Virus record (IMG/VR): IMGVR_UViG_3300047388_000352
Coordinates: 1-23,906 of that record
Reading direction: 5' to 3' (one strand)
Length of the DNA: 23,906 nucleotides
From: a virus
In this document: piece by piece, positions 2,897 to 23,534 of the stretch
How the letters are laid out: each line of letters begins with the position of its first letter
Position numbering within the stretch: the first letter of the stretch is position 1
Program-made: the position numbers and the translations under genes
Notes under the pieces: generated by a model
Databases searched by the model: none
What the model was told of the DNA's origin: nothing
The model's input: the letters and a program-made list of their open reading frames with translations, nothing else

Positions 2897-2924
2897 CGAC
2901 CGCGTTGTAACGCGGCTTGCATTT
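2897..2924 (+). promoter_or_regulatory. Putative late promoter core, copy 1 (before portal)
   Basis: This 28-base block matches 13075-13102 at 20 of 28 positions: CGnCCG, then TGTA, then CGGCTTGC(A/G)TTT. It lies 105 bases before the portal ATG, after a run of coupled genes ends. TTGCAT could be a -35, but 17 bases on there is no -10 match. A sigma-54 reading fails because -24 lacks GG (it is GT). The class of promoter, or whether it is an activator site, is unknown; the repeated position and orientation are the evidence for a regulatory role. Confidence 0.55.
2900..2915. repeat. Perfect 7-bp inverted repeat inside the copy-1 core
   Basis: CCGCGTT and AACGCGG flank a central GT. The loop is too short for an efficient RNA hairpin, so it looks more like a symmetric protein-binding site. 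The equivalent bases in copy 2 (13078-13093) keep only the outer CCG/CGG, so this symmetry is particular to the portal promoter region. Confidence 0.4.
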
Positions 2925-2963
2925 CGACCCGGGGTGTGGCCATCCTGAGGTCAGATCAGCGAC

Positions 2964-3014
2964 CGGACCACCGGCAGCGCTGACCGAGCTACCCCGTCCA
3001 GCCGTGGGGCCGCG
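2964..3014 (+). promoter_or_regulatory. Conserved leader element, copy 1 (portal 5' leader)
   Basis: Three blocks are shared with 13135-13190: CGGACC (2964-2969), CGGCAGC (2972-2978) and, seven bases later in both copies, GAGCT-n-CCCC-n-TC...AGCCG-n-GGGGCCGCGC (2986-3014). CCCC at 2992-2995 can pair with GGGG at 3006-3009 around a loop carrying AGCCG. It ends 14 bases before the portal ATG, where no clear Shine-Dalgarno is present. It may act in the mRNA leader (translation, stability) or as a DNA site; the function is not known. Confidence 0.55.
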
Positions 3015-3028
3015 CCAAGCGGACCCCC

Positions 3029-5047
3029 ATGGCCAAGGACACCGGCGACCAGTACACGCTCAAGCGCGACGAGCACTGGTTCCGTCTGCCGGTCGGCGCC
3101 CCGGTCCACAAGCGCGTCGTCCCGTACGCGCGCGCGCTCCTCCAGCGCGAGAGCAACTTCCACCGGAAGAATCTGGCGCGCGAGCGTATCTACCGCGGCG
3201 TCGTCCTGCAGCAGTTCCGCGCCGCGCTCCAGCACCTCGAGCGCGGCGGCTACGGGATGGCGCGGCTGAACGTCGTCGGCGCCGTGTGCGACACGTTCTC
3301 GAGCCGCCTCTCCAAGGACCGGCCGATGCCCGGCGTGGTCACCACCGGCGCCGACTGGGGGATGAAGCGGCGCGGCCAGAAGTTCCGCGAATTCGTCGTC
3401 GGCCAGATGCAGGAGACCGAGTTCGACGACCTCAGCAGGTTCGCGCTCGACGACGGGACGCAGCTCGGCGTGGGGTTCACGCGCGTCGACGACAACGAGG
3501 ACGCGGTGTTCGCCGAGCGCATCCCGGTCAACGAGCTCCTGTTCGACCGGCGCGAATGCAAGTACGGCAAGCCCGGCCAGGCGATCCGCATCCAGCGCGT
3601 GGCCCGGCAGTACCTGTGCGAGCTGTTTCCCAAGGCCGAGGACGTCATCGAGATCGCGCCCCAATCGGAGCGCCGCGCCGAGGACACCGACATCGACGGC
3701 GACGGCCCGCACTACGGCGATCTCGAGGATTACGTCGACGTGTTCGAGGCGTGGCATCCACCGACGCTCAAGGACGGCGACGATGGCCGCCACGTCCTGT
3801 GCATCGACGGTGTGAGCGACGAGTGCACGCTGGTCGCCGAGGAGTGGTACGAGCCGCGGTTCCCGTGGGCTCGGTTCCAGCTGCGGCTCCCGCACCGCGG
3901 CATCTACTGCGATGGGTTCGTCGACCTGCTGGCCGACCTGCAGCACCGGCTCAACATGATCGTCCGGGACCTGCAGCTGAACCTGGCGGCGACCGGGCGC
4001 GGGTTCTTCCTGGTCAACAAGGCCAACGACATCCCCGTCGAGAACTTGACCGGCTGGAACCCGTTCAAGCTCAAGTACAGCGGCGGTCCTCCTCCCACAT
4101 ACGAGACACCGCAGCCCTTCCACCCGGCGCAGCTCGCGATGGCCAAGGAGGTCATCGGGTGGATGTACGACCTCTCCGGCGTCTCGCGATCGAATGCGGA
4201 GAGCAAAAGCTCGCTCGGGCCCGGCGCGAGCGGCGTGGCATTGGAGACCCAGTACGACATCGACAGCGATCGGTTCCGCATGCCCCAGGCGAACTACGCC
4301 CGATACCGGCTCGAGGCCGCCCAGCGCTACATCGACGCCGCAGCCCGCGTCGCGCGCCGGCGCGAGGAGAGCAAGGGCAAGAAGCGCAGCTGGATCGCGG
4401 TGTCGTGGAAGGGCCGCGACGCCATCGAGCAGCTCGACTACTCGAAGGTCCAGCTCGACGACGGCGACTACCGCCTGCGCATCGAGCCGATCGGGTTCCT
4501 GCCCGACACCCGCGCCGGCAAGCTCAATATCGTCGACCAGCTCGCGCGCGCCGGCGTGATCCCGCAGTGGTTCGTGCCGGCACTGTTCGACGACCCGGAC
4601 CTGACCGAGGCGATGCGGATCATCCTCGCCCCGTTCAAGAACATCCTGAAGATGATGGACACCCTTGTCGACGCCGACAAGGAGGCGCCACAGCCCGAGC
4701 AGTACCACGACCTCGAGCTCTGCCTGATCGTCGCGACCTCCTACTACAACTGGGTCCAGAGCGAGGAAGCGCCGCCCGAGGTCCAGCAGCGGTTCCGCGA
4801 CTTCATCGACAACACGGTCTACGAGATCCAGCGCAAGAAGTCCGGCACCGCCGCGGGTGCGCCCGGCATGCTCGGCGCGGGTCCGAGCCCGGCCGATGCT
4901 GTTGCGCCGGCGCTGCCGCCGGGCCCGCCACCCACGCCCGCGGGGCCGCTGCCGCCCAACCCCGGCGGCGTCCAGCTCATGCCCTCGGGCCCGGTTCCGC
5001 CGCCGGCCCCGGTCGGAGCGATCCCACCCATCCCGATGGCGGCCTGA
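3029..5047 (+). CDS. Portal protein
   Basis: Forms the dodecameric ring at one capsid vertex through which DNA is packaged and ejected. The 672-residue length is near that of large podovirus portals. Recognisable portal features: an N-terminal region ending in NVVGAVCDTFSSRL (about residues 80-93), the KFREF..QMQETEFDD helix, wing segment RIPVNELLFDRRECKYG (about 165-181), the helical DLLADLQHRLNMIVRDLQLN stem (about 300-320) and the DLSGVSRS...GPGASGVALE segment (about 380-410). The last 60 residues are a Pro/Gly-rich, probably flexible tail with PPNPGG. The start lacks a good ribosome-binding site but lies at a fixed distance from the conserved leader, as in the nozzle gene. The stop is nine bases before the scaffold start. 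Confidence 0.93.
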   Translation: MAKDTGDQYTLKRDEHWFRLPVGAPVHKRVVPYARALLQRESNFHRKNLARERIYRGVVLQQFRAALQHLERGGYGMARLNVVGAVCDTFSSRLSKDRPMPGVVTTGADWGMKRRGQKFREFVVGQMQETEFDDLSRFALDDGTQLGVGFTRVDDNEDAVFAERIPVNELLFDRRECKYGKPGQAIRIQRVARQYLCELFPKAEDVIEIAPQSERRAEDTDIDGDGPHYGDLEDYVDVFEAWHPPTLKDGDDGRHVLCIDGVSDECTLVAEEWYEPRFPWARFQLRLPHRGIYCDGFVDLLADLQHRLNMIVRDLQLNLAATGRGFFLVNKANDIPVENLTGWNPFKLKYSGGPPPTYETPQPFHPAQLAMAKEVIGWMYDLSGVSRSNAESKSSLGPGASGVALETQYDIDSDRFRMPQANYARYRLEAAQRYIDAAARVARRREESKGKKRSWIAVSWKGRDAIEQLDYSKVQLDDGDYRLRIEPIGFLPDTRAGKLNIVDQLARAGVIPQWFVPALFDDPDLTEAMRIILAPFKNILKMMDTLVDADKEAPQPEQYHDLELCLIVATSYYNWVQSEEAPPEVQQRFRDFIDNTVYEIQRKKSGTAAGAPGMLGAGPSPADAVAPALPPGPPPTPAGPLPPNPGGVQLMPSGPVPPPAPVGAIPPIPMAA

Positions 5048-6517: not shown

Positions 6518-7795
6518 ATGGCAGCACATACGCTTGCAAACCAAGACGCCTTCCTGAAGGACGTCTACACCGACGAGAAGATCCTCGAGCAGAGCTTCGG
6601 CGACAACCCCTGGCTGGCCTTCGTGCAGAAGGAGCGCGGCTACACCGCGGGTGGCCGGCGCTACGTCCAGCCCGTCGAGTTCGCGAACCCGAGCGGCGCC
6701 GGCGCCGACTACGGCTTCGCGATGACCGACTCGACGGTCAGCCAGTACCAGGACTTCCTGCTGTCCCGGATGAAGCAGTACCAGCGCATCCAGGTCAACA
6801 ACGAGCTCCTGTACGCGACCGAGAAGAAGTCCGATGCGTTCGTCAAGGCGCTCGGCGAGTTCGACCGCGGGCTCCAGTCCCTCGGCGAGAAGATCGGGCG
6901 CCGGCTCTACCGGACCCAGGGCGGCGCGCTCGGCCAGCTGGCGATCGCCTCGACGAACACCACGACGCTGACGTTCACCGACAACGCGGCGACCTTCAAT
7001 TTCACGATCGGCCAGGTGCTGCAGGCCAGCACCACCGACGGGTCCGGCTCGCTGCTCAACGGCGGCGCGACCACGACCGTCACCGCGGTCGACGAGGAGT
7101 CCGGCACCGTCACGATCGCCGACAACCTCGGCGTGAAGTTCGGCGGCAGCGTCACCGCGTCGTCGTTCATCTTCCAGCGCGGTGACTACAACGCATGCAT
7201 CTCCGGCCTGGCCGACTGGCTCCCCGGCGACGTCTCGACGCGGGCCGCGCTGCTCGCCGCGGCGTTCAACAACATCACGCGATCGACGTCGCCCGTGCGG
7301 CTCGGCGGCGTGTTCCTCGACGGCCGCACCATCGGCGACCTCGACGCGATCATCATCAAGCTGACCGCGAAGGTCACGAAGTACGGCGGCAAGACCTCGC
7401 ACATCTTCGCCAACCCCGAGTCGCTCGCGGACCTTGAGCTGGTGTCGAACAGCAAGGTGCGGATCCTGGGCGACGTCAACGGCCAGGTGATGAGCCGCGA
7501 CGGCAACCTGATCGTCGGCTTCAGCGGCTACAAGGCGCTGTGCGGCGGGCGGATGGTCAGCATCTACCCGGACCGCAACTGCCCGAGCAACCGGCTCTAC
7601 GCGCTCATGGCGAGCACCTGGCGGCTCTGGCACACCGGCGAGTGGATCAACTGGACCGGCGAGATGGCCACCGGCCTCCGCCTGCGCCCCTCGGAGAACG
7701 AGGACAGCGTCGAGGCGCGGCTCGGCGCGTACCAGAACCTCGGCTGCTCGGCGCCCGGCTGGAACGGCGTGGCCCAGCTGAACGCGAGCTCGTGA
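6518..7795 (+). CDS. Major capsid protein (HK97 fold)
   Basis: Coat subunit of the icosahedral head, 425 residues. The N-terminal arm (QDAFLKDVYTDEKILEQ) and the segment QVNNELLYATEKKSDAFVKALGEFDRG followed by SLGEKIGRRLYRTQGG resemble the E-loop/spine region of HK97-type coats. Residues about 145-216 are a Thr/Gly-rich beta insertion (from TNTTTLTFTD to SSFIFQRGDY), similar in placement to the extra domains of P22-like and other podovirus coats. The C-terminal half has the A/P-domain pattern HIFANPESLADLEL and GFSGYKALCGGRMVSIYPDRNCP. It is preceded by the hairpin at 6489-6513 and followed seven bases on by a probable decoration gene. Position after the scaffold is as expected. Confidence 0.92.
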   Translation: MAAHTLANQDAFLKDVYTDEKILEQSFGDNPWLAFVQKERGYTAGGRRYVQPVEFANPSGAGADYGFAMTDSTVSQYQDFLLSRMKQYQRIQVNNELLYATEKKSDAFVKALGEFDRGLQSLGEKIGRRLYRTQGGALGQLAIASTNTTTLTFTDNAATFNFTIGQVLQASTTDGSGSLLNGGATTTVTAVDEESGTVTIADNLGVKFGGSVTASSFIFQRGDYNACISGLADWLPGDVSTRAALLAAAFNNITRSTSPVRLGGVFLDGRTIGDLDAIIIKLTAKVTKYGGKTSHIFANPESLADLELVSNSKVRILGDVNGQVMSRDGNLIVGFSGYKALCGGRMVSIYPDRNCPSNRLYALMASTWRLWHTGEWINWTGEMATGLRLRPSENEDSVEARLGAYQNLGCSAPGWNGVAQLNASS

Positions 7796-8215: not shown

Positions 8216-8911
8216 ATGGACCTCGCAACTCTCGGCCGGGTCGGGAACTTCGACCAGGCCACCATCAACCAGCTCGCCGGCGACACCGGCTCCCTCGTCG
8301 AGTCGATCAGCGCGGCGGGCGCGATCGACCCCTTCAAGTTCGCCACCGAGCTGACCGTGAGCGGGACGATGGCGTTCACGCTCGCGGCACCCACGTTCGC
8401 CGGGCAGAAGAAGAAGATCACCTGCGTGTCGGCCGCCTCGACGCCGCTCGGCACGGTCACCATCACGAGTCCGGAGACCCTGGCCGGGTTCGTCTGCGCC
8501 GGATCGTTCTGCTTCACCACGGCCGGCCAGGTGGTTGAACTGGAGGCCACGGCGGGGCTGAAGTGGCGCGCGCGGCGCGTGCACAAGCAGGGCGTCCGCA
8601 CGCTGGTGGTCGGGACGACGGTGACCACCGGATTCAACCTCGAGCACTTCGCGCTATCGGTCACGGGGACCGTGTCGAGCACGACCACGAAGGCGATCCC
8701 CGACGGCTCGGCGCCCGGCGAGATCTTGCTGGTCGGCTGCAGCGTCGCCGCGACGATCCCGAGCGGGACCATCGGACTCACCGCGTTGACCACGCTCGGC
8801 GCGGCCGGGACCACGCTGGGGACGTTCAATGCGACGACCTGCTACGCGTCGCTGCTGTGGAACGGTACCGGCTGGCAGCTCACTGGCAACACCACCGTGG
8901 TGCTCAGCTGA
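8216..8911 (+). CDS. Beta-rich protein with two related domains, head decoration or fibre candidate
   Basis: It has 231 residues; the ATG at 8216 follows the previous stop by eight bases. The longer open frame upstream runs through the preceding gene and is a shadow. Two segments align loosely: residues about 55-120 (AGQKKKITCVSAASTPLGTV...) and about 165-228 (APGEILLVGCSVAATIPSGT...). They share PG/AG-Q/E, a Cys eight or so residues on, an Ala-Ala-Ser/Thr-x-P-x-G-T turn and a W-containing closing strand (GLKWRAR, GTGWQLT). This repeated beta unit resembles those in phage head fibres or decoration proteins. Position next to the coat favours a head surface role; a tail role cannot be excluded. 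Confidence 0.75.
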   Translation: MDLATLGRVGNFDQATINQLAGDTGSLVESISAAGAIDPFKFATELTVSGTMAFTLAAPTFAGQKKKITCVSAASTPLGTVTITSPETLAGFVCAGSFCFTTAGQVVELEATAGLKWRARRVHKQGVRTLVVGTTVTTGFNLEHFALSVTGTVSSTTTKAIPDGSAPGEILLVGCSVAATIPSGTIGLTALTTLGAAGTTLGTFNATTCYASLLWNGTGWQLTGNTTVVLS

Positions 8912-8912
8912 A

Positions 8913-9401
8913 ATGTCGCTGACGGTGACCAGTTCGGATAGCGAGCTAACGCAGCTGTGGGCCGTCGCGCTCGGCGGACTCGATATTCGGCACCCGAACG
9001 GGCGTTCGGAGGTCGAGCTCCGTTTGATGGGTGAGGACCGGCTGCAGCTGTACGTCGGACTCGACCAGACCTGGTGCACGCTCACCGGCGCGCGCAAGGC
9101 GCCGTTCGCGATCTCGACCGTGACGCTCACCTACTGGCCTGGCAGCAGCCGAATCTCGCGCGCGTGGTTCGCGGCAGCATGGGCTGGGTACTGCCAGCAT
9201 GAGGCGCTCGAGCTGGTGACCCTGATCCACGACTGGTCATCGAAGGTGCTCGACCCCCACGCCGAGCCGTATATCTCGAACCCGGCGAACCGCGGGCTGC
9301 GCGATGGCTTCCCGGTGGAGCTCACGCCGACGAGCCTGCTCGATACCCTGGCGCTCGTCATGCCGCGCGCGGATGCCGTGCGGCTCGTGGAGGCAGCATG
9401 A
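8913..9401 (+). CDS. Conserved-looking virion-module protein, unknown function
   Basis: It has 162 residues starting one base after the previous stop, and overlaps the adaptor start by ATGA (9398-9401). The first third looks beta-rich (MSLTVTSSDSELTQLW, EVELRLMGEDRLQLYV). The second part is helical with a Trp/Ala-rich stretch (SRAWFAAAWAGYCQHEALELV), then PHAEPYISNPANRGLRDG and a C-terminal helix. No catalytic motif or membrane segment stands out. Its place between coat-associated proteins and the adaptor suggests a head or neck component, but I do not recognise it. Confidence 0.75.
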   Translation: MSLTVTSSDSELTQLWAVALGGLDIRHPNGRSEVELRLMGEDRLQLYVGLDQTWCTLTGARKAPFAISTVTLTYWPGSSRISRAWFAAAWAGYCQHEALELVTLIHDWSSKVLDPHAEPYISNPANRGLRDGFPVELTPTSLLDTLALVMPRADAVRLVEAA

Positions 9402-12660: not shown

Positions 12661-12993
12661 TCAGTGGCACTGCAGGAGACTCATGAACGATGCGGAGCAA
12701 TCGCAGTCCGCGTTGCCCTTCGCTGGGCTAGGGACACGGGCGTTGCAGACCAACCAAGCATCGAGCTCATCTCTGCACGAGTCCGGGGTCTGCGCCGAGT
12801 TCGTCTGGCACTGGCCGATGTAGGTCGCTGCCGGGATAGGGGTCGGTGGGTTGGTCGTGGTGTCGAAGTACGAGCACCCTGCCGAGTAGTAGTGCTGGAT
12901 CGCGTCCTGGCAGCTCGGAGGCGGGGAATCGCTCGCGCCGCAGGAGATCGCCGAGGCAACCACCGAGAAGGCCACCACCAGAAGTCGCTTCAT
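12661..12993 (-). CDS. Small Cys-rich lipoprotein (moron gene 1)
   Basis: It has 110 residues and is read first in a two-gene minus-strand unit; 75 bases separate it from the next lipoprotein. The start at 12993 gives a clean signal: KR then LLVVAFSVVASAISC, lipobox-like A-I-S-C with Cys18. The remaining 92 residues hold eight more Cys (28, 40, 62, 73, 83, 97, 99, 109), an even number that suggests four disulphides in the periplasm or outside. There are also aromatic spots HYYSAGCSYF and a DELDAWLVC helix. Longer in-frame extensions upstream overlap the nozzle gene and are not real. A promoter-like core lies 39 bases before its start. Small Cys-rich lipoproteins are common in Myxococcota genomes, which hints at the host. 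Function is unknown; superinfection exclusion is a candidate. Confidence 0.72.
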   Translation of the reverse strand: MKRLLVVAFSVVASAISCGASDSPPPSCQDAIQHYYSAGCSYFDTTTNPPTPIPAATYIGQCQTNSAQTPDSCRDELDAWLVCNARVPSPAKGNADCDCSASFMSLLQCH

Positions 12994-13048: not shown

Positions 13049-13101
13049 ATGCGCAGGGGCGCCGTCCGGATTGGCGTCCGATCTGTATGCCGGCTTGCGT
13101 T
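13022..13101. repeat. 11-bp perfect inverted repeat spanning the divergent regulatory region
   Basis: AACGCAAGCCG at 13022-13032 and CGGCTTGCGTT at 13091-13101 are exact reverse complements with 58 bases between them. The arms are the cores of the two divergent promoter candidates. They may therefore be two independent sites in opposite orientation rather than the arms of one hairpin. Confidence 0.6.
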
Positions 13102-13102
13102 T
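13075..13102 (+). promoter_or_regulatory. Putative late promoter core, copy 2 (before nozzle)
   Basis: It matches 2897-2924 at 20 of 28 positions, including TGTA at the same place and CGGCTTGC(A/G)TTT. From GGCTTGC to a shared TGTGG is 26 bases in both copies. The core begins 113 bases before the nozzle ATG, against 116 in copy 1 (measured from CGGCTTGC). It would restart plus-strand transcription beyond the reversed lipoprotein genes. Confidence 0.55.
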
Positions 13103-13134
13103 GGCGATGAACTGTGGTCGCATGGGTCAACCCA

Positions 13135-13190
13135 CGGACCGAGGCATCGGCAGCCGTAGGTGAGCTTCCCCATCAGCCGCGGGGCCGCGC
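13135..13190 (+). promoter_or_regulatory. Conserved leader element, copy 2 (nozzle 5' leader)
   Basis: CGGACC (13135-13140), CGGCAGC (13148-13154) and GAGCT-n-CCCC-n-TC-AGCCG-n-GGGGCCGCGC (13162-13190) repeat the portal leader, with the same seven-base gap between the second and third blocks. CCCC 13168-13171 can pair with GGGG 13181-13184. It ends 13 bases before the ATG at 13204, which supports that start over the upstream GTG. Confidence 0.55.
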
Positions 13191-13203
13191 GACCAGCGCC
13201 GCC

Positions 13204-16200
13204 ATGCCCCCGGAAGCCGTCCAGGCGTTTCGATTCGCCCAGGGCCTGCAGACGAAGCAGGACCCCAAGAGCGTCGCGATGCCGGCCCTGCTGGTCCTCG
13301 AGAACGGCGTGTTCTCGCGGGCGACCTCGATCAGGAAGCGGAACGGTTGTGAAGATCTCGGGCAGCAGATCGAGGGCACCAGCGCCGAGGTGACCAACGC
13401 GATCCGCATGGGCAAGCGCGGCACCGAGCTCCTCGAGTTCACGTCGAACCGCTGCTACTCGCGCGAGAGCGGCGCCGCGCAGTGGTCCGATGCCGGGGCC
13501 GTGTTCAGCGCCGTCGGTGCCGATCGGCCGCTGCCCACCACCGGCACCGACCAGACCATGATCGACGCGGCTTCGCTTGCCGGCGTGACGGTGTGCGCGT
13601 GGGAGGATTCGGCGGGCGGGGTCTGGTGGTCGGTCGTCGACGCCGCCAGCGGCCGAGTGTACCGCGCCGCGACCCAGGCCGACGCCACCGGCATCTCGCC
13701 GCGGTGCGTGGCCGTCGGGGTCAACCTGCACGTGTACTGGGCGAACGCCGCGGGCGGGACGCTCAACGTGATCGTGGTCAACCCCCAGCTGCCAGCGGCC
13801 GCGGCGACGCCAGTCCAGCTCACCCCCGACCTGGCGGCCGCCGACCCGATCTACGACGTCACGCCGACCACGCGCACCGACAGCCCGGCAATCCTCGCGT
13901 GGGCCGAGTCGGGCAGCGCGAACATCCGGATCGGGTACATCGACCAGGGCGGCACGATCTCCTCGCCGCTGCTGGGCGACCCGCCGTCGATCACGTTCGC
14001 GGCGGCGCGCACCGCGAGCACGCCCATCGGGCTATCGCATGTCCTCGTGGACGGCGCGAACGGCGACCGGATCGCGCTCGCGTACGTCACCGGCGGCGGA
14101 ATCGGCAGCGCCAAGGTCCAGTTTCTCTCGGGGGGCAATGGCAACATCAGCCCGATCGCCGCGGTCGCGAGCGCCATCGCGTACGCGCCGACCGCGGCGT
14201 TCCTGCGCTGCGGGGTGACCGTGCTGCGCGACCAGGCCGCCGGAACGATCACTGCCTGGACAGCATGGGAGGAGACCGCGGCGGCGCCCACGAACCACTA
14301 CGTCCGCGTGGTCTCGGTCGAGGTCACGGCCGGCTCGAGCGGCATCCTCGGGACGCTCAAGTCGGTCGGGCTGGTCGCGAAGCCGTTCGCGATCGGCACC
14401 GACGTGTTCGTGACCACGGTCCACCCGACCACCTCGTTCAACGTCTACCTCACGTTCAAGATCAGTGGCATCGGTTCCGACGGCAATGTCCCGGTCGGCC
14501 GCCACCTGCCGGGCTCCGCCGCCGGCCTGCCGGCGCGAACGCACCTCGCGTCCGCGTACGTCGCCGGCTCGATCGCGAGCATCGCGCTGCCGATGCGACA
14601 GCGCCTGGTGAGCGAGAACGACGACAAGTTCCTCGAGACCGCGCCGCGCCTGATCACGATCGACTTCGACAACGACCAGAGCCACCAGTCTGCGGAGTTC
14701 GGCAAGGGGCTCTACCTCGCCGGTGCCTGCCCGATGCACTACGACGGCCGCTCGTGGACCGAACTCGGGTTCCATGTCGGCCCCGAGGTCATCACCGCGA
14801 CGCCCGCCGGTGGCGGCTCGATGACCTCGAGCACGGTCTACGAGTACCGCGCCTGGTACGAGTGGACCGACGCGCAAGGCGAGGTCCACCCGGGCCCGAC
14901 GTCGCCCGGGATCCTCGTGACGATGGGCCCGGCCGACACCCAGGTCACGCTGAGCCTGCCGACCTGCCGGCTCACTCGCAAGCTCGGTGTGCGCATCATG
15001 GTCGCGCGCTCGCTGCCCGGCTCGGACGGCAACGCGTCGGAACTGTTCCGTGTGACCTCGCTCGACACCACGACCGTCGGCGCCGCCAACGGCTACGTCG
15101 CCAACGTCCCGGCGAGCGACGCCGTGTCGTTCCTGGACCGGATGAACGACACCACGCTCCAGACGTTCGACGAGCTCTACACCGACGGCGGGATCCTCTC
15201 GAACGATCCGACACCGCTCGGCCCCGCGATCGCGCGCGGCAAGAACCGGCTGTTCGCCAGCGACCCGAGCGATCCGACGCTCGTGCGCTACTCGCAGCCC
15301 ATCGCCGACGGGATCGGCGTGCAGTGGCCGCCGGACCTGTTCCTTCGCGTCGACCTGCAGGGCGGCAGCGTGCAGGGCCTGGCGAGCATCGACAACCGGA
15401 TCATCATCTGGACCGAGCGCCAGATCTGGACGTTCGCCGGTGACGGCCCGGACCAGACCGGCGGCACCGACACCAGCGGCTTCTCGCAGGCGCAGCTCGT
15501 GCCCAGCGGCGACATCGGCTGCACCGATTCGCAGTCGATCGTGTTCACGCCGCGCGGCTACCTGTTCATGAGCGCGCAGGGCATCTTCGAGCTCGGCGGC
15601 GACAGCAACATCAACTACCGCGGCGCGCCCGTCGAGGCGTTCAACAGCCAGCGGATCCGCCGCGCCCTCCAGCTCCCGGACCGCACGCAGATCCTGTTCC
15701 TGACCGACAGCGGATCGACCCTGCTCTACGACTACTTGTTCGACCAGTGGTCGACCTTCACGAACTACGAGGGGCGCGACTGCGCGGTGGTCGATGGCCG
15801 ACTCTACTACCTGCGCACGGACGGGCGCATGTTCGCCGAGACCATCGGCGTCTACTCGGATGCCGGCGCGCGGATCCGGCTGCGCCTCGAGACCGCGTGG
15901 ATCAAGATGGTCGAGTACCTGCAGGGGTTCCAGAAGTTCAACCAGTTCCATCTGCTCGGCACATGGGAGTCGGCGCACCAGCTCGGCGTGCAGTACCAGA
16001 CCGACTACACGCACGGCTGGACCGACGCGGTGTGGCTCGACGCGACCGGTGCGAGCAGCGGCGCGGGATGGATCAGCGGCTCGAACGTCGTTGGCGTCGA
16101 GCCGATCAGTGGCTCGAACTACAATGACGGGCAGTACAACGTCGGCGAGTACGGCGGCACGGCGCCGGGCGAGTACGCCTGGCGGCTCGACCTGTGGGAG

Positions 16201-16344
16201 GTCGGCCAGTCGATCCAGTTCCGGTTCGAGGACTTCGAGGCCGCCGGATTCTTCGGTCCCTCGTTCGAGCTCACCGAGCTCGTGATCACCGGGCAGGTGC
16301 TCGGCAACGTGCGCCGTCCGATGACGGCGGGAAGGTCAGGCTGA
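13204..16344 (+). CDS. Tail nozzle / DNA-stabilisation protein (P22 gp10-like), very long
   Basis: It has 1046 residues from the ATG placed by the conserved leader. The N-terminal segment FAQGLQTKQDPKSVAMPALLVLENGVF...SIRKRNGCEDL (about 9-50) is the hallmark opening of podovirus tail-nozzle proteins that plug the exit channel and hold packaged DNA. The long middle is beta-rich, as expected for beta-propeller blades. Near residues 785-880, GYLFMSAQGIFELGG, YRGAPVEAFNSQRI and LLYDYLFDQWSTFTNYEGRDC form the second typical block, followed by a C-terminal beta domain. It is more than twice the 472 residues of P22 gp10 and longer than T7 gp12 (about 790). It overlaps none of the lipoprotein genes; longer frames upstream are spurious. 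The ejection genes follow after two bases. Confidence 0.85.
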   Translation: MPPEAVQAFRFAQGLQTKQDPKSVAMPALLVLENGVFSRATSIRKRNGCEDLGQQIEGTSAEVTNAIRMGKRGTELLEFTSNRCYSRESGAAQWSDAGAVFSAVGADRPLPTTGTDQTMIDAASLAGVTVCAWEDSAGGVWWSVVDAASGRVYRAATQADATGISPRCVAVGVNLHVYWANAAGGTLNVIVVNPQLPAAAATPVQLTPDLAAADPIYDVTPTTRTDSPAILAWAESGSANIRIGYIDQGGTISSPLLGDPPSITFAAARTASTPIGLSHVLVDGANGDRIALAYVTGGGIGSAKVQFLSGGNGNISPIAAVASAIAYAPTAAFLRCGVTVLRDQAAGTITAWTAWEETAAAPTNHYVRVVSVEVTAGSSGILGTLKSVGLVAKPFAIGTDVFVTTVHPTTSFNVYLTFKISGIGSDGNVPVGRHLPGSAAGLPARTHLASAYVAGSIASIALPMRQRLVSENDDKFLETAPRLITIDFDNDQSHQSAEFGKGLYLAGACPMHYDGRSWTELGFHVGPEVITATPAGGGSMTSSTVYEYRAWYEWTDAQGEVHPGPTSPGILVTMGPADTQVTLSLPTCRLTRKLGVRIMVARSLPGSDGNASELFRVTSLDTTTVGAANGYVANVPASDAVSFLDRMNDTTLQTFDELYTDGGILSNDPTPLGPAIARGKNRLFASDPSDPTLVRYSQPIADGIGVQWPPDLFLRVDLQGGSVQGLASIDNRIIIWTERQIWTFAGDGPDQTGGTDTSGFSQAQLVPSGDIGCTDSQSIVFTPRGYLFMSAQGIFELGGDSNINYRGAPVEAFNSQRIRRALQLPDRTQILFLTDSGSTLLYDYLFDQWSTFTNYEGRDCAVVDGRLYYLRTDGRMFAETIGVYSDAGARIRLRLETAWIKMVEYLQGFQKFNQFHLLGTWESAHQLGVQYQTDYTHGWTDAVWLDATGASSGAGWISGSNVVGVEPISGSNYNDGQYNVGEYGGTAPGEYAWRLDLWEVGQSIQFRFEDFEAAGFFGPSFELTELVITGQVLGNVRRPMTAGRSG

Positions 16345-17285: not shown

Positions 17286-19652
17286 ATGCCCCTCTACGAC
17301 GGCGACATGGTCAACCTGCTCACGCCCGACGGGCGCGCGGTCTCGATGCCCTCGGGCCTTGCCGCGAACTTCCCCGGGCTGCAGCCCTTCCCGGCACCGC
17401 CGCCGATGCCCGCGGCTCCCGCGCCGGATCAGACCGGCGTCCCGACTCCCGCGGCGCCGCCGATCGTGCCCCCCACGCCGCAGGCCCCCGGGGAGGGCCC
17501 GATCACGGACCCCTCGCAGTTGCCGCCGGCAACCGGGTCCCCTTCGATCCCACAGGGCCCCGTGACGTCCCCCGCGGAGGACGCCGGGGTCCCGCGGCGG
17601 CCGGCCCCGGAGCCCTCGCCGACGAGGGCCCAGCTGATCAAGGAGGGCCCCGCGGGGACCCTCGCCGCGCAGAACACCGCGATCGACAAGCAGCAGGCCG
17701 CGATCGATCGTTCGGCGCAGGTTGAGGCCGACGCCGCGACGCAAGAGGGCCACGCCATGGCCCAGCGCGACGCGCAGACCCAGCAGATCCTGGCCGAGCG
17801 CGCGAAGCAGGCGGCCGCGAACGAAGCCGAGCTCAACGCGCGGATCCAGGCGCGCGACCAGCTGGCCGACCAGATCGCCAAGACGCGGATCGACCGCAGC
17901 GTGGACCACCCGATCTGGGCGCAGATCGGGCTCGTGCTCTCGATGCTCGGGACCGCCATGACCCGCCGGCCCGGCGAGGCATGGAACGATCCGGCCTACA
18001 ACACGCTTCAGCAGCTGCTCGACAAGAAGGTCGCCGGGCAGATGGCCGACGTCGAGCAGAGGCGGATGGCGCTCGCGCAGATGAACGTGGGCGTCACCGA
18101 GCAACGCCAGCACAACGTCGACCGGCTCACCGAGATCGACGCGCGCAAGGACGCGGCGATCCAGCAGGCGCAGCAAGCCGTGCAGACGATCGCGATGCAG
18201 ATGAAGTCGCCGGCCGCGCTCGCCGGCGCGCAGCAGCTCAACGCGAAGCTCGACGAAACGCGGGCCGACCTTCGAGGCCAAGCCGGACAGCGCTACCAGG
18301 ATCAGATGAACGTGGAGGCCGCGCGCGCGCAGGCGGTGCAGATGCATCGCGAGTCGCTGGGAATGCAGTACCGGATCCACAGCGAGACCATGGCGGCGAC
18401 CGAGCGCGAGAAGATGGCGGAGGTCGCGCAGCGCGCGCTCGCGGCCGGCGACAAGGCGACCGCGGAGCGCGCCAAGGCCGTGCAGGAGCGCGCGATCGGT
18501 GACCCGCGCACCGGCAGCGCGCTCCTCACCCCCGCCGGTCAGGCGAAGATGGACCAGGCCGACAAAGCCGAGGCGCAGGCGCGCCAGCAGCAGGACCCGG
18601 CCCAGGCGCAGAAGCTCCGCGACTACGCCGGCACGCTCCGCCAGAGCGCCACGCTGAACGATGCCGCGCTCGCTCCGACCACCGAAGCGCAGAAGGAGTT
18701 GACCAAACAGGTCACCTCCGCGCAGGACATCACGGATCGCATCGGCGACACGATCGACAAGCTCCAGGCCGGGCCGGGCGTGCTGAACCGCGAGGCGTGG
18801 TCGTCGATCACCACCGATCTCGGCAACATCGCCGGCAAGTACCAGCAGGCGATGGGCGAGCGCGTCTCGACCAAGGCGTTCGAGCAGACGATGCAGCATA
18901 TCCTCAACTTCGATCCGGACAGCCTGTTCCAGCGTGCGGCGAGCAAGGACAAAGCGATCGAGTCGCTCAAGACGCTCAAGGGCATGGTGGCGAGCGATGT
19001 CGATGCGGCCCTGAAGGGGAACCGCATGCAGACCGGGTGGAAGCCGCAGACCAAAACCGAGCGCGGGACCTCGTTCGGCGCCGACGAGAAGACGGCCGCC
19101 GAGCTCGCGAACGATCGGACGCTGGGCTACCTCACGCCGGGGCATTACACCGATGCAGAGGACCAGGCCAAGGAGCAGGCGATCAGCGACGCGGAGGCGC
19201 GCCCCGGCAGCGAGGCCGGGCTCTCTCCGAACGCCACGACGCACATCAAGGCGCTTGCCGCGCGCGCGGCGACCGCCGGCGATGCCGAGCACGATCGGAT
19301 CGTGCAGGCGCTGGCGAACCCGATCAGCGACGGGCTCAGGGAGGGTGGGCGCAACACGGTCTCCATGGGCATGCTCGAGGTCCTGCGCAACAGCGCGCCC
19401 GCCGTCTACGAGGACGTCGTGAAGTCGCTGCCGGCTAGCGACCAGAAGGAGATCCGCGGGATCGAGGCGTCGATCCGCAAGGCGCCCAACGTGCCGAACG
19501 TGCCCAGCCGGTTCGACCCGAGCGCACCCGAGGAAGAGGATCCGGACGTGGTCGCGCGGCGCGCGGCGGCGTTCGCGCCGTTCCAGCCGGGCGCTCCCCT
19601 TCGCAACAGTCCCGGGGCCGGGCCGTCGCTCGGGCTGAGGACGAATCGGTAG
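17286..19652 (+). CDS. Large Gln/Ala-rich coiled-coil internal virion protein
   Basis: It has 788 residues. The N-terminus has a short segment LLTPDGRAVSMPSGLAANF (about 11-29), which resembles the start of the next gene product. Then comes a Pro-rich linker (30-120) and a long charged helical part (about 125-440) rich in Gln, Ala, Lys and Glu with no predicted membrane segment. The C-terminal part (from about 470) contains mixed helices (DITDRIGDTIDKLQAG, SLFQRAASKDKAIESLKTLKGM) and a disordered acidic/Pro end. It lies between two other ejection-type proteins, three bases after the first and directly abutting the third. Structure and place point to an internal or ejected virion protein; no enzymatic motif is seen. 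Confidence 0.75.
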   Translation: MPLYDGDMVNLLTPDGRAVSMPSGLAANFPGLQPFPAPPPMPAAPAPDQTGVPTPAAPPIVPPTPQAPGEGPITDPSQLPPATGSPSIPQGPVTSPAEDAGVPRRPAPEPSPTRAQLIKEGPAGTLAAQNTAIDKQQAAIDRSAQVEADAATQEGHAMAQRDAQTQQILAERAKQAAANEAELNARIQARDQLADQIAKTRIDRSVDHPIWAQIGLVLSMLGTAMTRRPGEAWNDPAYNTLQQLLDKKVAGQMADVEQRRMALAQMNVGVTEQRQHNVDRLTEIDARKDAAIQQAQQAVQTIAMQMKSPAALAGAQQLNAKLDETRADLRGQAGQRYQDQMNVEAARAQAVQMHRESLGMQYRIHSETMAATEREKMAEVAQRALAAGDKATAERAKAVQERAIGDPRTGSALLTPAGQAKMDQADKAEAQARQQQDPAQAQKLRDYAGTLRQSATLNDAALAPTTEAQKELTKQVTSAQDITDRIGDTIDKLQAGPGVLNREAWSSITTDLGNIAGKYQQAMGERVSTKAFEQTMQHILNFDPDSLFQRAASKDKAIESLKTLKGMVASDVDAALKGNRMQTGWKPQTKTERGTSFGADEKTAAELANDRTLGYLTPGHYTDAEDQAKEQAISDAEARPGSEAGLSPNATTHIKALAARAATAGDAEHDRIVQALANPISDGLREGGRNTVSMGMLEVLRNSAPAVYEDVVKSLPASDQKEIRGIEASIRKAPNVPNVPSRFDPSAPEEEDPDVVARRAAAFAPFQPGAPLRNSPGAGPSLGLRTNR

Positions 19653-22600
19653 ATGCCGGCGTTCCGCGGTCCAGACGGGCGGGTAATCTACGCCCCCGAC
19701 GACGAGGCCGATCGGTACCGCGCGGGCGGCGAGTACCAGGAGATCGGCGGCGCGGAGGCTGGCGCGACGCAGAACCGGATCGCACCCACCGACAACGGCG
19801 TCCTCGGGTCGATCGGCGCGACGGTCAGCGGTGCGCTCTCCGGCGCGACACTGGGCGCCTCGGACTGGTTGCTGAAGGGCGTCCTCGACAAGGGGCAGTT
19901 CGATCAGCTCGCGCAGGACCGCGCCGACAACCCGATCCTTGCCGGGGCCGCGCAGACCGCCGGCATGGTTCTCCCTGCGCTCGTGAGCGGCGGCGCCGCG
20001 ACACCAGCCGGCGCGCTCAGCCGGGCGGCGGCCGGCAGCATCGAGGCCGGGCGGGCGACCGGCGGCGCGCTTGGACTCGCGCAGCAGCTCGGCGCGGCCG
20101 CGGGCGAGGGGGCGATCGCCAACGCCGGGATCTACCTGTCCGACGTGGCGCTCGGCGACCGCAACCTGACCGCCGAGGGCATCAACGGCGCGCTCGGCAC
20201 CGGCCTCTTGTTCGGCGCCGCGGGCATCCCGATCGCGCACGGCATCGAGGTCGGCACGATCGCGGCCCGGCGCATGTTCGCGCGGTACGCCGAGGGCGGC
20301 GCGCAGGCAGCGGATGCCGCGGCGGCGACCTGGACCGAGCAGGCTCAGAAGCACCTCGAAGGATTCGACCAAGCCGCCGAGCTCGCGAAGGCGAGGCTCG
20401 CGGAGGCGAGGCTCGCGGAGGCCCAGACCGCGCGCGAGGCCGCGAACCTGCAGCGGCTCCGCGCCGGCGCCGAGATGGCGGATGCGCGCGCGTTCACCCC
20501 GCCGGCCGAGTTCCCGGGCTCGCCCGCTGGCGCACCTGCAGTGCCCGGAACCGCGGCCGAGACCGCTGGTGTTGCAGCGCCGGGCCCGCCGGCTACCCCC
20601 GCCGAGCCGCCGGAGGTCGCGATGGCCCGCGCGCTGCGCGACCGCGCCAGAGCCTTGGGCGGTGAGCCGATCACGCCGGGCGAACTACCACCGGGGGCGC
20701 CGGGGTTCCAGCGGGACTACGTCATCCCAGGCGCCCGCGGCGCTCCGGCCCCGGTGAACGCCCTCGATGCGCTTGCCGGGGAGTCAGGCGTGGCCAGCAT
20801 GGGGCCGGAGACCAGCGTCCAGAGGCTCGGCCTCCGCCGCGTGCCGGTGACCGCCGATGAGGCCGAGCTCGGCGCGCGGCTCGCCGAGTACCAGGACGCC
20901 CGGCGCGCGTTCGACGAGATCCACGCGCAGGTTGACCCCGACCTCGATGCGATCCTCCGCGGCGTCCAGCCGGGCGACATCCAGCGCCCGCCGGTGCCGA
21001 TCGGCGAGTTCGGCGCGCCCGGCGCGCGCGGGATCAAGACGCCGGACGAGCTCGCGCGGATCGCCGCGGGGACCGGGCGCGAGGAAGGCGCGCAGGCGGT
21101 GTCGCTCGCGTCGGCGGACGCCACCGGCGCCGGCGGCCCGCGCGCATTGCGATCCCAGGGCACGCCGCCCGCGCGCTCGCTGGGCGAGGTCGCCGCCGAG
21201 CAGGCTCCGGTGCCCGTCGAGCAGCCCGCGACCGCGGTGGGGAAGCGGCCGGCGGAGCCCTCAACGAGCGCGACATCGGCCGCATCGGCCGAACCAGGCA
21301 TCCCCGATCGCGCGCGGATCGTCGGCCGCTACGGCAAGGGCGCGGCGCCACTTCCGGAGAGCGAGGTGCCGGATCACGCCGCGCTCGATCGGTATCTCAA
21401 CCGCACCGGCAAGGACTACGCGGAGGCAACGCTGCCGGCGCGGTCGATCGGCGATCGGGGCTACTACGAGCCGCCCGGCGGCGGGACGGACGCGGTGCGC
21501 ATCACGAACGCCCGCAAGGCAATCGCCGAGGGTCAGCGCGAGCCGATCAAGCTGGGGGTCTCCCCCGAGGGCAAGATCATGGTGACCGATGGCCGGCATA
21601 GGCTCGCCGCCGCGATCGAGGCCGACGCGCCGATCAAGGTGAAGTGGACCACCAGCACCGAGCCGGTCGAGAGCGACGTGCTCCGCGGCGGGACGCGCGC
21701 GCCAGCCACCGACACGCTCACTGGCCAGCTCCGCGGGACGGCGGCCAGGCTCGGCGCTGGCGAGAGCCTCGCGGAGATGGGGCGCGCGCCCGCCGCGGCA
21801 ACTCGGGCGACGCAGGCCGAGCGCGCCGCGGCGGACGCCGGGCGCTTCCGTGCCAAGGCGCTGGCTGGGCGCCCATTCGAGGGTCCGGCGCGCCCGCCGG
21901 GCGGTCATCCCTTCGAGGTCAAGCGCCTCGAGATGGCCCACGACGAAGCGCTCGAGCGCGCGGCGACCGCGGCGAACCCGGCCGAGCGCGCGGCCGCGAC
22001 GCAGGAGGCCCAGGCGATCGAGAAGCAGATCGCCCAGGTCGGTGCCCGCCCCGGGGCCGTCGAGGACATCGCGGCCCTGGCGCCGGCCGTGACCCGCATC
22101 GAGAAGGCGGCCGCCGCGCTGACCGAGGCGCTCGGCGACGTCGCGCCAGCGGTCGCCAAGGAGCACGCCGCCGCGTTCCGGGCCGCGGAGGACGAGGTGA
22201 ACCGCAAGACGGTTGCACGCATCGGGCAGGCCGCGGACGACGCAGCTGGCGGCCGCGCCGCTGCGCAGAGCCGCGATCCGCTGGCCCCGCCGGCGCGCGC
22301 GGACGACGATCTGCTGCTCGGGCCGAGCCAGAAGGAGCAGCGGATCGCCGCCGCCCAGAAGGCCCAGCGCGAGGCCGGCGCCGTCTACGCCAAGGCGCGG
22401 ATCGCCGAGGCCGAGGCGCAGATCGGCGCGAAGCAGGCCGCCGGCGCCGCCGCGGAGGCGCGCGCCAAGCTCGGCCCCCCGCCGCCGACCCCTGGCGCGG
22501 CGCCGCGCGGGCATGGGGTCGGCGAGCGCGCGCTCCATGCCGCCCACGTCGTGGGGTACGCCGCCGAGCTCGGCTCCGACCTGGGCATCCCCGGCGTCCC

Positions 22601-23534
22601 GCGCCCGCATGACATCCCGGTGATCGGCCCCCTGCTGAGCGGCTACCTGAAGTACCGCGCGCTCCGCGCCGCCGCCGGTCGGTTCATGGGGCGCGTACCG
22701 GCCACCGCGGAGACCCGCGCGGCCGCGCTGGCGGCGCGCACCCGCGATGGCATCGCACGAGCCGTCGATCGATCGCTGGGCGTCATCGAGCGCAACTCGA
22801 ACACGGTGCGCGCCGCGCTGACCGTCGGGACCCTGAAGGCCACCGACGCGCTCGGCAAGCGCCTGGTCGACGACGGCGGGCCCGATGCGCCGGCCAAGGC
22901 ATCGCTGCCCGAGCAGGCCGCGGTGAGGATGCGCGAGGTCGCCGCGGTGATCGCGAACCCGGCGCTCATCCACGATGCGATCCGCACGCAGGGCCGCGCG
23001 CTGACCGATCCGGACCTGATCGACGCGCTCTCCAACCACCTCGTCACGATGTTCCAGCGGCTGAACGAGATCGCCCCCAAGGGCCCGCCGCCGAACCCCT
23101 TCACCGGGAAGCAGTGGACGCCATCGCCCGCTGACGCGATCCGCTTCGGGCAACAGGTCGCCATCGCTCGCGATCCGCAGGTCGCGTTCCAGATGCTCGA
23201 GGCCGGGACGCTCACGCCGACCGGCGCGGACACGCTGCGGAAGTGCTACGAGCTGCTGTACCGCGATGGCCAGCAGCGCGTGATCCAGCGCGCCGCCGAG
23301 CTCAAGAACCCGGTCGACTACACGCAGCTTGTCCGGCTCGGCCGTCTGTTCGATCTTCCGCTCCACCCCAGCCAGAATCCGGAGCACGCCGCGGTGCTCG
23401 CCGGGGCGCACACGCCCGCCGCGAAGCCCTCGCCGGCGGCATCGGCGCAGGGCGCCCCGCCGACGCCATCGATCGCCGGGCCGACGACCCTCAGCAACCT
23501 GTACCAGCCATCGGGCGAGCGCGCCCAGAGGTGA
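19653..23534 (+). CDS. Giant internal virion (ejection) protein with embedded ParB-like domain
   Basis: It has 1293 residues, starting immediately at the previous stop (TAGATG). The first 30 residues hold FRGPDGRVIYAPDDEADRY, related to the start of the previous product. Residues about 45-215 contain four Gly/Ala-rich hydrophobic stretches (GSIGATVSGALSGATLG, AGMVLPALVSGGAATPAG, GALGLAQQLGAAAGEGAI, GALGTGLLFGAAGIPIAHG) that could insert into membranes. Ala/Glu-rich helices, long Pro-rich linkers and, at about 545-672, a folded segment follow: ITNARKAIAEGQREPIKLGV, then EGKIMVTDGRHRLAAAIEA with Asp646-Gly-Arg-His-Arg650. This is the pattern of ParB/sulfiredoxin-like domains. More coiled coil and a helical C-terminal part (about 970-1240) complete it. 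It is likely ejected with the DNA; what the ParB-like part does is unknown. Confidence 0.78.
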   Translation: MPAFRGPDGRVIYAPDDEADRYRAGGEYQEIGGAEAGATQNRIAPTDNGVLGSIGATVSGALSGATLGASDWLLKGVLDKGQFDQLAQDRADNPILAGAAQTAGMVLPALVSGGAATPAGALSRAAAGSIEAGRATGGALGLAQQLGAAAGEGAIANAGIYLSDVALGDRNLTAEGINGALGTGLLFGAAGIPIAHGIEVGTIAARRMFARYAEGGAQAADAAAATWTEQAQKHLEGFDQAAELAKARLAEARLAEAQTAREAANLQRLRAGAEMADARAFTPPAEFPGSPAGAPAVPGTAAETAGVAAPGPPATPAEPPEVAMARALRDRARALGGEPITPGELPPGAPGFQRDYVIPGARGAPAPVNALDALAGESGVASMGPETSVQRLGLRRVPVTADEAELGARLAEYQDARRAFDEIHAQVDPDLDAILRGVQPGDIQRPPVPIGEFGAPGARGIKTPDELARIAAGTGREEGAQAVSLASADATGAGGPRALRSQGTPPARSLGEVAAEQAPVPVEQPATAVGKRPAEPSTSATSAASAEPGIPDRARIVGRYGKGAAPLPESEVPDHAALDRYLNRTGKDYAEATLPARSIGDRGYYEPPGGGTDAVRITNARKAIAEGQREPIKLGVSPEGKIMVTDGRHRLAAAIEADAPIKVKWTTSTEPVESDVLRGGTRAPATDTLTGQLRGTAARLGAGESLAEMGRAPAAATRATQAERAAADAGRFRAKALAGRPFEGPARPPGGHPFEVKRLEMAHDEALERAATAANPAERAAATQEAQAIEKQIAQVGARPGAVEDIAALAPAVTRIEKAAAALTEALGDVAPAVAKEHAAAFRAAEDEVNRKTVARIGQAADDAAGGRAAAQSRDPLAPPARADDDLLLGPSQKEQRIAAAQKAQREAGAVYAKARIAEAEAQIGAKQAAGAAAEARAKLGPPPPTPGAAPRGHGVGERALHAAHVVGYAAELGSDLGIPGVPRPHDIPVIGPLLSGYLKYRALRAAAGRFMGRVPATAETRAAALAARTRDGIARAVDRSLGVIERNSNTVRAALTVGTLKATDALGKRLVDDGGPDAPAKASLPEQAAVRMREVAAVIANPALIHDAIRTQGRALTDPDLIDALSNHLVTMFQRLNEIAPKGPPPNPFTGKQWTPSPADAIRFGQQVAIARDPQVAFQMLEAGTLTPTGADTLRKCYELLYRDGQQRVIQRAAELKNPVDYTQLVRLGRLFDLPLHPSQNPEHAAVLAGAHTPAAKPSPAASAQGAPPTPSIAGPTTLSNLYQPSGERAQR
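20391..20420 (+). repeat. Perfect 15-bp tandem repeat (two copies) in the giant ejection gene
   Basis: GCGAGGCTCGCGGAG occurs twice in a row (20391-20405 and 20406-20420), preceded by a partial copy, and adds ARLAE units to a coiled coil. Being a multiple of three, it can expand or contract without breaking the frame. Confidence 0.85.

Follow-up and report, generated by a model that had tools for sequence, protein, structure and literature searches.

T4 phage uses MotA-type sigma appropriation at its middle promoters, where the host σ70 holoenzyme works with an off-consensus −35 region. The locus described here, a cassette present twice in the genome of an uncultured virus, also has an off-consensus −35 region, which could be served by a phage activator in the same way; however, no relative of MotA or AsiA was seen, and the only candidate is an isolated sigma region-4 protein found in just two genomes. 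Closer parallels come from phage RNAs. HK022 carries two put RNAs, putL and putR, which are similar to each other, ~70 nt long, made of two stem-loops each and located downstream of two early promoters (PMC9378689). The cassette resembles them in having two stem-loops directly after the promoter core and two copies per genome (hairpins A and B in the window, G000, and in its relative G001). It differs in that put acts on the polymerase for early genes, binding the β′ zinc-binding domain and suppressing termination, whereas the cassette serves virion-protein genes, and in that the cassette structure ends on a start codon and its hairpin A is dispensable. In lambda, binding of RNase III to the cIII leader relieves a structure that inhibits translation (PMC2777011). 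There the likeness would be that of a 5′ leader whose translation-inhibitory conformation can be changed; for the cassette, mutually exclusive folds are predicted, one of which, hairpin C, would mask the start and is much the more stable in most copies. Unlike the cIII leader, the cassette leader occurs twice, in front of two virion genes, and both copies follow the same kind of putative promoter. The lambda cIII leader and HK022 put may serve as the closest working analogies. Literature searches, which had partial coverage, returned nothing specific on phage leaders of this kind, and the cassette is a real cis-acting unit, conserved in a clade of uncultured phages and apparently undescribed so far.

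The window and its relatives

The window is the whole virus record of 23,906 bases, with ~71% G+C, and is labelled G000 in comparisons. Its genes run from the large terminase (99-1709) through small genes to the portal, the major head protein (6518-7795) and more virion genes. After this first virion block comes a gap with a reverse-strand ORF, followed by the genes at 13204-16344, 17286-19652 and 19653-23534. The reverse-strand ORF occupies 12661-12993, after the first virion block and ahead of cassette 2, and G001 has reverse-strand genes there too; it may be because of such genes between the two blocks that a second promoter is needed. A 96-aa protein encoded between the large terminase and the portal (2387-2677) is kept in nearly every relative and gave no clear PHROG match. 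A gene that follows the head genes in the window (8829-9401) is found directly upstream of the portal in G004 (L043:19473-19892), an apparent relocation.

Relatives were found in IMG/VR (G001, G002, G003, G004, G005, G006, G007, G009, G012, G015, G016 and G017). G001, at 58,657 bp, has a direct repeat common to both ends, seen as a repeated protein stretch, and is therefore essentially complete. Neither a near-identity search (megablast) nor tblastn of the portal and capsid found a relative among 50,697 phage records, and a portal alignment found none in the bacterial genome collection.

The duplicated cassette

Cassette 1 (2897-3028) recurs at ~13060-13203 (Table 1). As the sequence-only reading had reported, the 28-base core at 2897-2924 is identical to 13075-13102 at exactly 20 of 28 positions, a figure not attained by any other 28-mer of the window on either strand. 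When the two cassettes are aligned locally the score is 42, the best of 1,242 other same-length comparisons within the window being 32. The three leader blocks and the CCCC/GGGG stem of that reading are present in both cassettes as described, and so are the distances from the C of CTTGC to the ATG, 116 and 113 bases with the ATG included. One block had been missed, namely a third hairpin, C, which abuts or includes the AUG. The genes behind the cassettes had been named portal and nozzle; the first name holds (phrog_156), and the second is a putative label, the PHROG matches of 13204-16344 being to virion structural or internal virion proteins.

Table 1. Positions in the window of the parts of both cassettes and of the genes that follow them; hairpins are predicted.
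Feature	Position	Strand	Remarks
Upstream box GTAACG, cassette 1	2907..2912	+	GTAACG/GTATGC/GTAATC kept in 9/9 strong cores
GCTTGCAT box, −35-like, cassette 1	2915..2922	+	CTTGC in all strong cores; G003 ortholog TTGACT
TGTG and −10-like region TGTGGCCATCC, cassette 1	2935..2945	+	Exact N14 from CTTGC to YGTG; hexamer uncertain
Hairpin A, cassette 1	2956..2983	+	Outer arms 2956-2961/2978-2983, inner arms 2963-2966/2971-2974
Hairpin B, cassette 1	2992..3009	+	CCCC 2992-2995 / GGGG 3006-3009; conserved CAGCCG in loop
Hairpin C, cassette 1	3001..3033	+	GCCGUGGGG-CCGC-GCCAA-GCGG-(A/C)-CCCCAUGGC; covers AUG (3029-3031); minimum-energy fold
Portal gene behind cassette 1	3029..5047	+	phrog_156 portal, E 6.9e-10
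Upstream box GTATGC, cassette 2	13085..13090	+	
GCTTGCGT box, −35-like, cassette 2	13093..13100	+	
TGTGGTCGCAT, extended −10-like, cassette 2	13113..13123	+	17 bp from TTGCGT to TCGCAT
Hairpin A, cassette 2	13132..13160	+	
Hairpin B, cassette 2	13168..13184	+	CCCC/GGGG, loop ATCAGCCGC
Hairpin C, cassette 2	13183..13203	+	GGC-C-GCGC-GACCA-GCGC-C-GCC; ends at ATG
1,046-aa virion structural protein gene behind cassette 2	13204..16344	+	phrog_3287 and phrog_511, E ~1e-6

The cassette stands before the same genes in G001, G002, G005, G015 and G016, and parts of it precede the portal in G003, G004 and G017; its carriers include records that are only ~60-70% identical in protein. The pair is no accident of one genome, and that the observation itself is real is practically certain. 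Its two modules also occur separately: the core is found without a leader at G001:49946 and with B and C but without A in front of the G015 portal, and G003 has the leader with a diverged core. This supports the earlier description of the cassette as two-part.

Sequence and distribution of the core

The consensus of the core is GTAACG-N2-GCTTGCA-N13-YGTG-N-TCGnAT, and the nine strong copies give G...TGTAacgcgGCTTGCAtTTC...TGTG.TCg.aT, with the exact register CTTGC-N14-YGTG in every one of them. Copies lie upstream of the portal in G000, G001, G002 and G015/G016 and, in diverged form, in G003, G004 and G017; the second virion gene is preceded by the core in G000, G001, G005 and G015/G016. Matrix scans were run leave-one-genome-out, the matrix being built without the genome under test. 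In G001 the best matches score 46.6, 37.3 and 37.2 bits (second virion gene, third core at 49946 and portal, respectively) and the next one 11.3; in G000 they score 39.8 and 35.2, followed by 10.2, and in G015 27.4 and 12.2 at the same two genes, followed by 9.2. The 58.7-kb and 50.6-kb relatives scanned have the core only before these two genes, plus one extra copy. A position-matrix scan had been proposed together with the sequence-only reading, for which many matches inside genes in random orientation would have been damaging; the opposite was found, with two or three sites per genome, outside genes, on the coding strand and all before or near virion genes. To this extent the distribution bears out the promoter-like part of what had been called a phage-specific late promoter. 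A sequence-pattern scan of viral contigs for the core matched G001 and G005 only. The third core of G001 (L039:9946-9991, or G001:49946-49991), which has no leader, precedes a small ORF between the gene of the sigma4-like protein described below and the portal.

Recognition of the core

Judged from its sequence, the core is quite probably a promoter. As the sequence-only reading had stated, neither the σ70 nor the σ54 consensus fits. For σ70, both hexamers are off-consensus, with TTGCAT/TTGCAA against TTGACA and with TCGnAT lacking the A that σ70 needs at position 2, and a consensus scan gave no match at either cassette site. In six of the nine strong cores, 17 bp separate TTGCAn from TCGnAT, within the 16-18 bp of the σ70 type, and YGTG occupies the position expected of an extended −10. 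In the window lineage, the portal copies fit TCGnAT poorly (CCATCC, CTTGCT and TCACCT). At the orthologous portal site, G003 has TTGACT-N18-CACACT, and G004 has TTGCAA-N16-TATCCT, both nearer the σ70 consensus; it is by these two sites that the box behaves as a −35. Exact TTGACA followed at 16-17 bp by −10-like hexamers occurs in intergenic regions of G001, G004 and G006, though the score averaged over all such regions is close to what shuffles give. Such sequences suggest that σ70-type promoters are used by these phages, and we infer that the core is read by the host RNA polymerase.

A phage activator, also considered in the sequence-only reading, has one candidate, which is present in G001 and G004 and absent from G015/G016 with their good cores. 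In G001 it is a protein of 173 aa that combines a Cys/His-rich stretch with sigma region 4 (PF04545, 34.8 bits, above cut-off), and the stop codon of its gene (G001:49433-49954, or L039:9433-9954) overlaps the third core. The G004 homolog (L043:13276-13548) is 58-61% identical, and no clade record other than these two contains the protein. As a general reader of the core it was rejected, since it is missing from G015/G016 and G003; in part of the clade it may act as an activator. The family also occurs in 14 other environmental viral contigs, in which there is no convincing core and a single chance pattern match, in L097; no relative was found in the bacterial genome collection. Elsewhere in G001, the genes L038:779-1537 and L039:186-1001 match zf-HC2 and a cpYpsA SLOG family, zf-HC2 being a putative zinc finger and a domain of many anti-sigma factors.

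Hairpins A and B

Covariation was assessed in six copies of the window lineage, with 6+4 bp in A and 4 bp in B. Standard pairs are formed in 97.6% of the cells of A and B, and 7 of the 14 pairs are changed on both sides (5 of 10 in A and 2 of 4 in B), a count in which related changes enter more than once because the six sequences form two paralogous groups. None of 500 shuffles reaches the pairing or the double-change figure, and slid partners, a control that keeps the relatedness, pair in 24-49%. The compensatory changes in A and B uphold the view that the leader acts as RNA, and an RNA structure made of these two hairpins is very likely on the strength of the aligned copies. Elsewhere the B stems are CCCC, GTCC, GCCC and CCTC. 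The covariance model of the six copies also finds copies outside the model, namely those of the G003 portal (8.6e-5), G015 (1.2e-3) and G016 (4e-3); the latter two are second-site copies, and one G015 match of similar score elsewhere looks like chance. The G015 portal leader has no hairpin A, and in G003 this hairpin is altered. An Rfam covariance-model search of the window, L001 and L003 gave no match up to an E of 1.

Hairpin C and the start codon

In the predicted folds of all copies, hairpin C adjoins the AUG or includes it. It reads GAGG-C-UCCGC-GACAA-GCGGA-A-CCUC-C-AUG in G001, GGGG-U-AGCGC-UGAA-GCGCU-U-CCCC-AUG at the second site of G015, GGGG-CCUCA-CCCC-AUG in G004 and GGAC...GUCC-U-AUG in G017. 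With arms aligned in nine copies, 65 of 65 cells pair in C and 40 of 40 in B, against ~74% and ~73%, respectively, when arms are exchanged between sequences; 0 of 5,000 permutations reach the observed values, a result that is supportive and not independent because the arms were chosen by hand. The 5′ arm of C is wholly or partly the 3′ arm of B, so that the two hairpins exclude each other. C is the more stable, and forcing B costs ~6-15 kcal/mol relative to the minimum in most copies (1 in W2, the second-site copy of the window). With B formed, the AUG region is mostly open in six of the eight leaders outside the W2 group; this is not so in the second-site copies W2 and G005_2. Given this cost and the AUG that is not opened in W2 and G005_2, equilibrium switching without a ligand is unlikely. 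The joint B/C test is loose, being passed by 10-15% of shuffles for most leaders and by 30 of 242 natural starts (12%), and the leaders G002p and G003p fail the strict B-plus-C test. When start regions are ranked by minimum free energy, that of the portal is the most structured in the window and the third in G001, and is not an outlier by itself.

The two cassette genes had been said to start without a clear Shine-Dalgarno sequence, and neither has one of at least 4 nt; such sequences occur at 8 of 15 starts in the window, or more safely 7, one counted gene being cut by the start of the record, and at 39 of 64 starts in G001. Translational control by hairpin C has an even chance on the basis of the modelled folds, and a B/C switch is a more doubtful proposal. 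In G005 (8997), G015 (21263) and G016 (11779), all on the reverse strand, the cassette ATG opens an Arg-rich leader ORF of 28, 21 and 21 aa, respectively, ending in an overlap of exactly 14 nt with the beginning of the virion gene. This arrangement suggests that the leader ORF and the virion gene may be translationally coupled.

Proposed mechanism

The best explanation of the whole, to which we give slightly better than even confidence, is a late promoter read by the host polymerase and joined to an RNA leader that restrains translation. Each cassette would be a late-gene expression unit of two modules. In the first, the host polymerase would use a σ70-type arrangement consisting of the −35-like GCTTGCA, a 17-bp spacer with YGTG, the −10-like TCGnAT and the upstream GTAACG box; since both hexamers are off-consensus, it probably needs a phage or host activator and would be weak early in infection. 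The second module would be a 5′ leader of ~75-85 nt comprising hairpins A, B and C, with C pairing across or against the start codon. Transcription from the core would start a few bases before hairpin A, and B would form first, leaving the AUG region open in most portal copies. C would then take the G-rich strand from B and hide the AUG of genes that have no Shine-Dalgarno sequence. Only early loading of ribosomes, or a factor that keeps B in place via its conserved loop, would lift the restraint on translation, and in this way the leader would restrain or time translation of the portal and the second virion block. A fuller version is tentative: the cassettes may form a duplicated RNA switch, in which C hides both starts until a factor recognising the CAGCCG loop of B holds the open form, and which, with a dedicated late promoter class, would co-ordinate the head and second virion blocks.

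Alternative explanations

The core might belong to a phage-encoded polymerase or a complete phage sigma factor, the former having been raised in the sequence-only reading. The off-consensus boxes and the small number of sites in a genome, each of them before or near virion genes, agree with such a reader, but PF00940, the domain sought for a single-subunit polymerase, is absent from G001 and the other records searched (the T7 control was found at 1e-109) and sigma region 2 was not found, which makes this reading very unlikely. Still less probable is a σ54-type promoter. When TTGTAACG-CGGC-TTGCA is set against YTGGCACG-N4-TTGCW, the spacing (10 bp between GG and GC) and the TTGCA half are correct and 9 of the 11 specified consensus bases agree; the −12 GC is present, but in all nine strong copies GT stands in place of the −24 GG, YGTG-N-TCGnAT would lie inside the transcript with its conservation unexplained, and G003 and G017 have no upstream half. 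An intrinsic terminator of the upstream genes is hardly credible: in cassette 1 a scan flags CCGCGTTGTAACGCGG with the CTTGCATTTC that follows it as terminator-like, but the stem is not kept in cassette 2, in G005, at the second site of G001 or in G015, and only the sequence motif is kept.

For the leader, an unlikely reading is that of a conventional 5′ hairpin structure whose sole role is to stabilise the mRNA, the hairpin near the AUG being a by-product of high G+C. Gene starts are often structured in genomes of ~70% G+C, as also reflected in the natural starts that pass the B/C test; against this stand the compensatory changes in A and B, the conserved loop, and a hairpin C that is kept at a fixed place with quite different sequences (GGGG/CCCC, GAGG/CCTC and GGAC/GTCC). 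As regards hairpins A and B, the strongest competitor is a put-like antitermination RNA, whose two hairpins would bind the host polymerase and allow read-through of a long virion operon. In its favour, two similar leaders with A and B follow two cores and precede long operons. However, A is missing from the G015 portal leader and changed in G003, the structure has a fixed end at the start codon, which C includes, and antitermination needs neither; moreover, put acts on early genes and the leader has no Rfam match. A put-like function is slightly less probable than simple stabilisation.

Meaning for the clade

For a clade of phages that has no cultured relative, a cis-acting unit obtained from sequence alone, reproducible across genomes and marked by compensatory changes, resolves into a small set of testable parts. 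These are a putative promoter class represented two or three times per genome and an RNA covering start codons that have no Shine-Dalgarno sequence. The cassette probably governs the timing and the level of particle-protein synthesis. If the leader gates translation, these phages would use paired RNA leaders to balance the head proteins against the second virion block.
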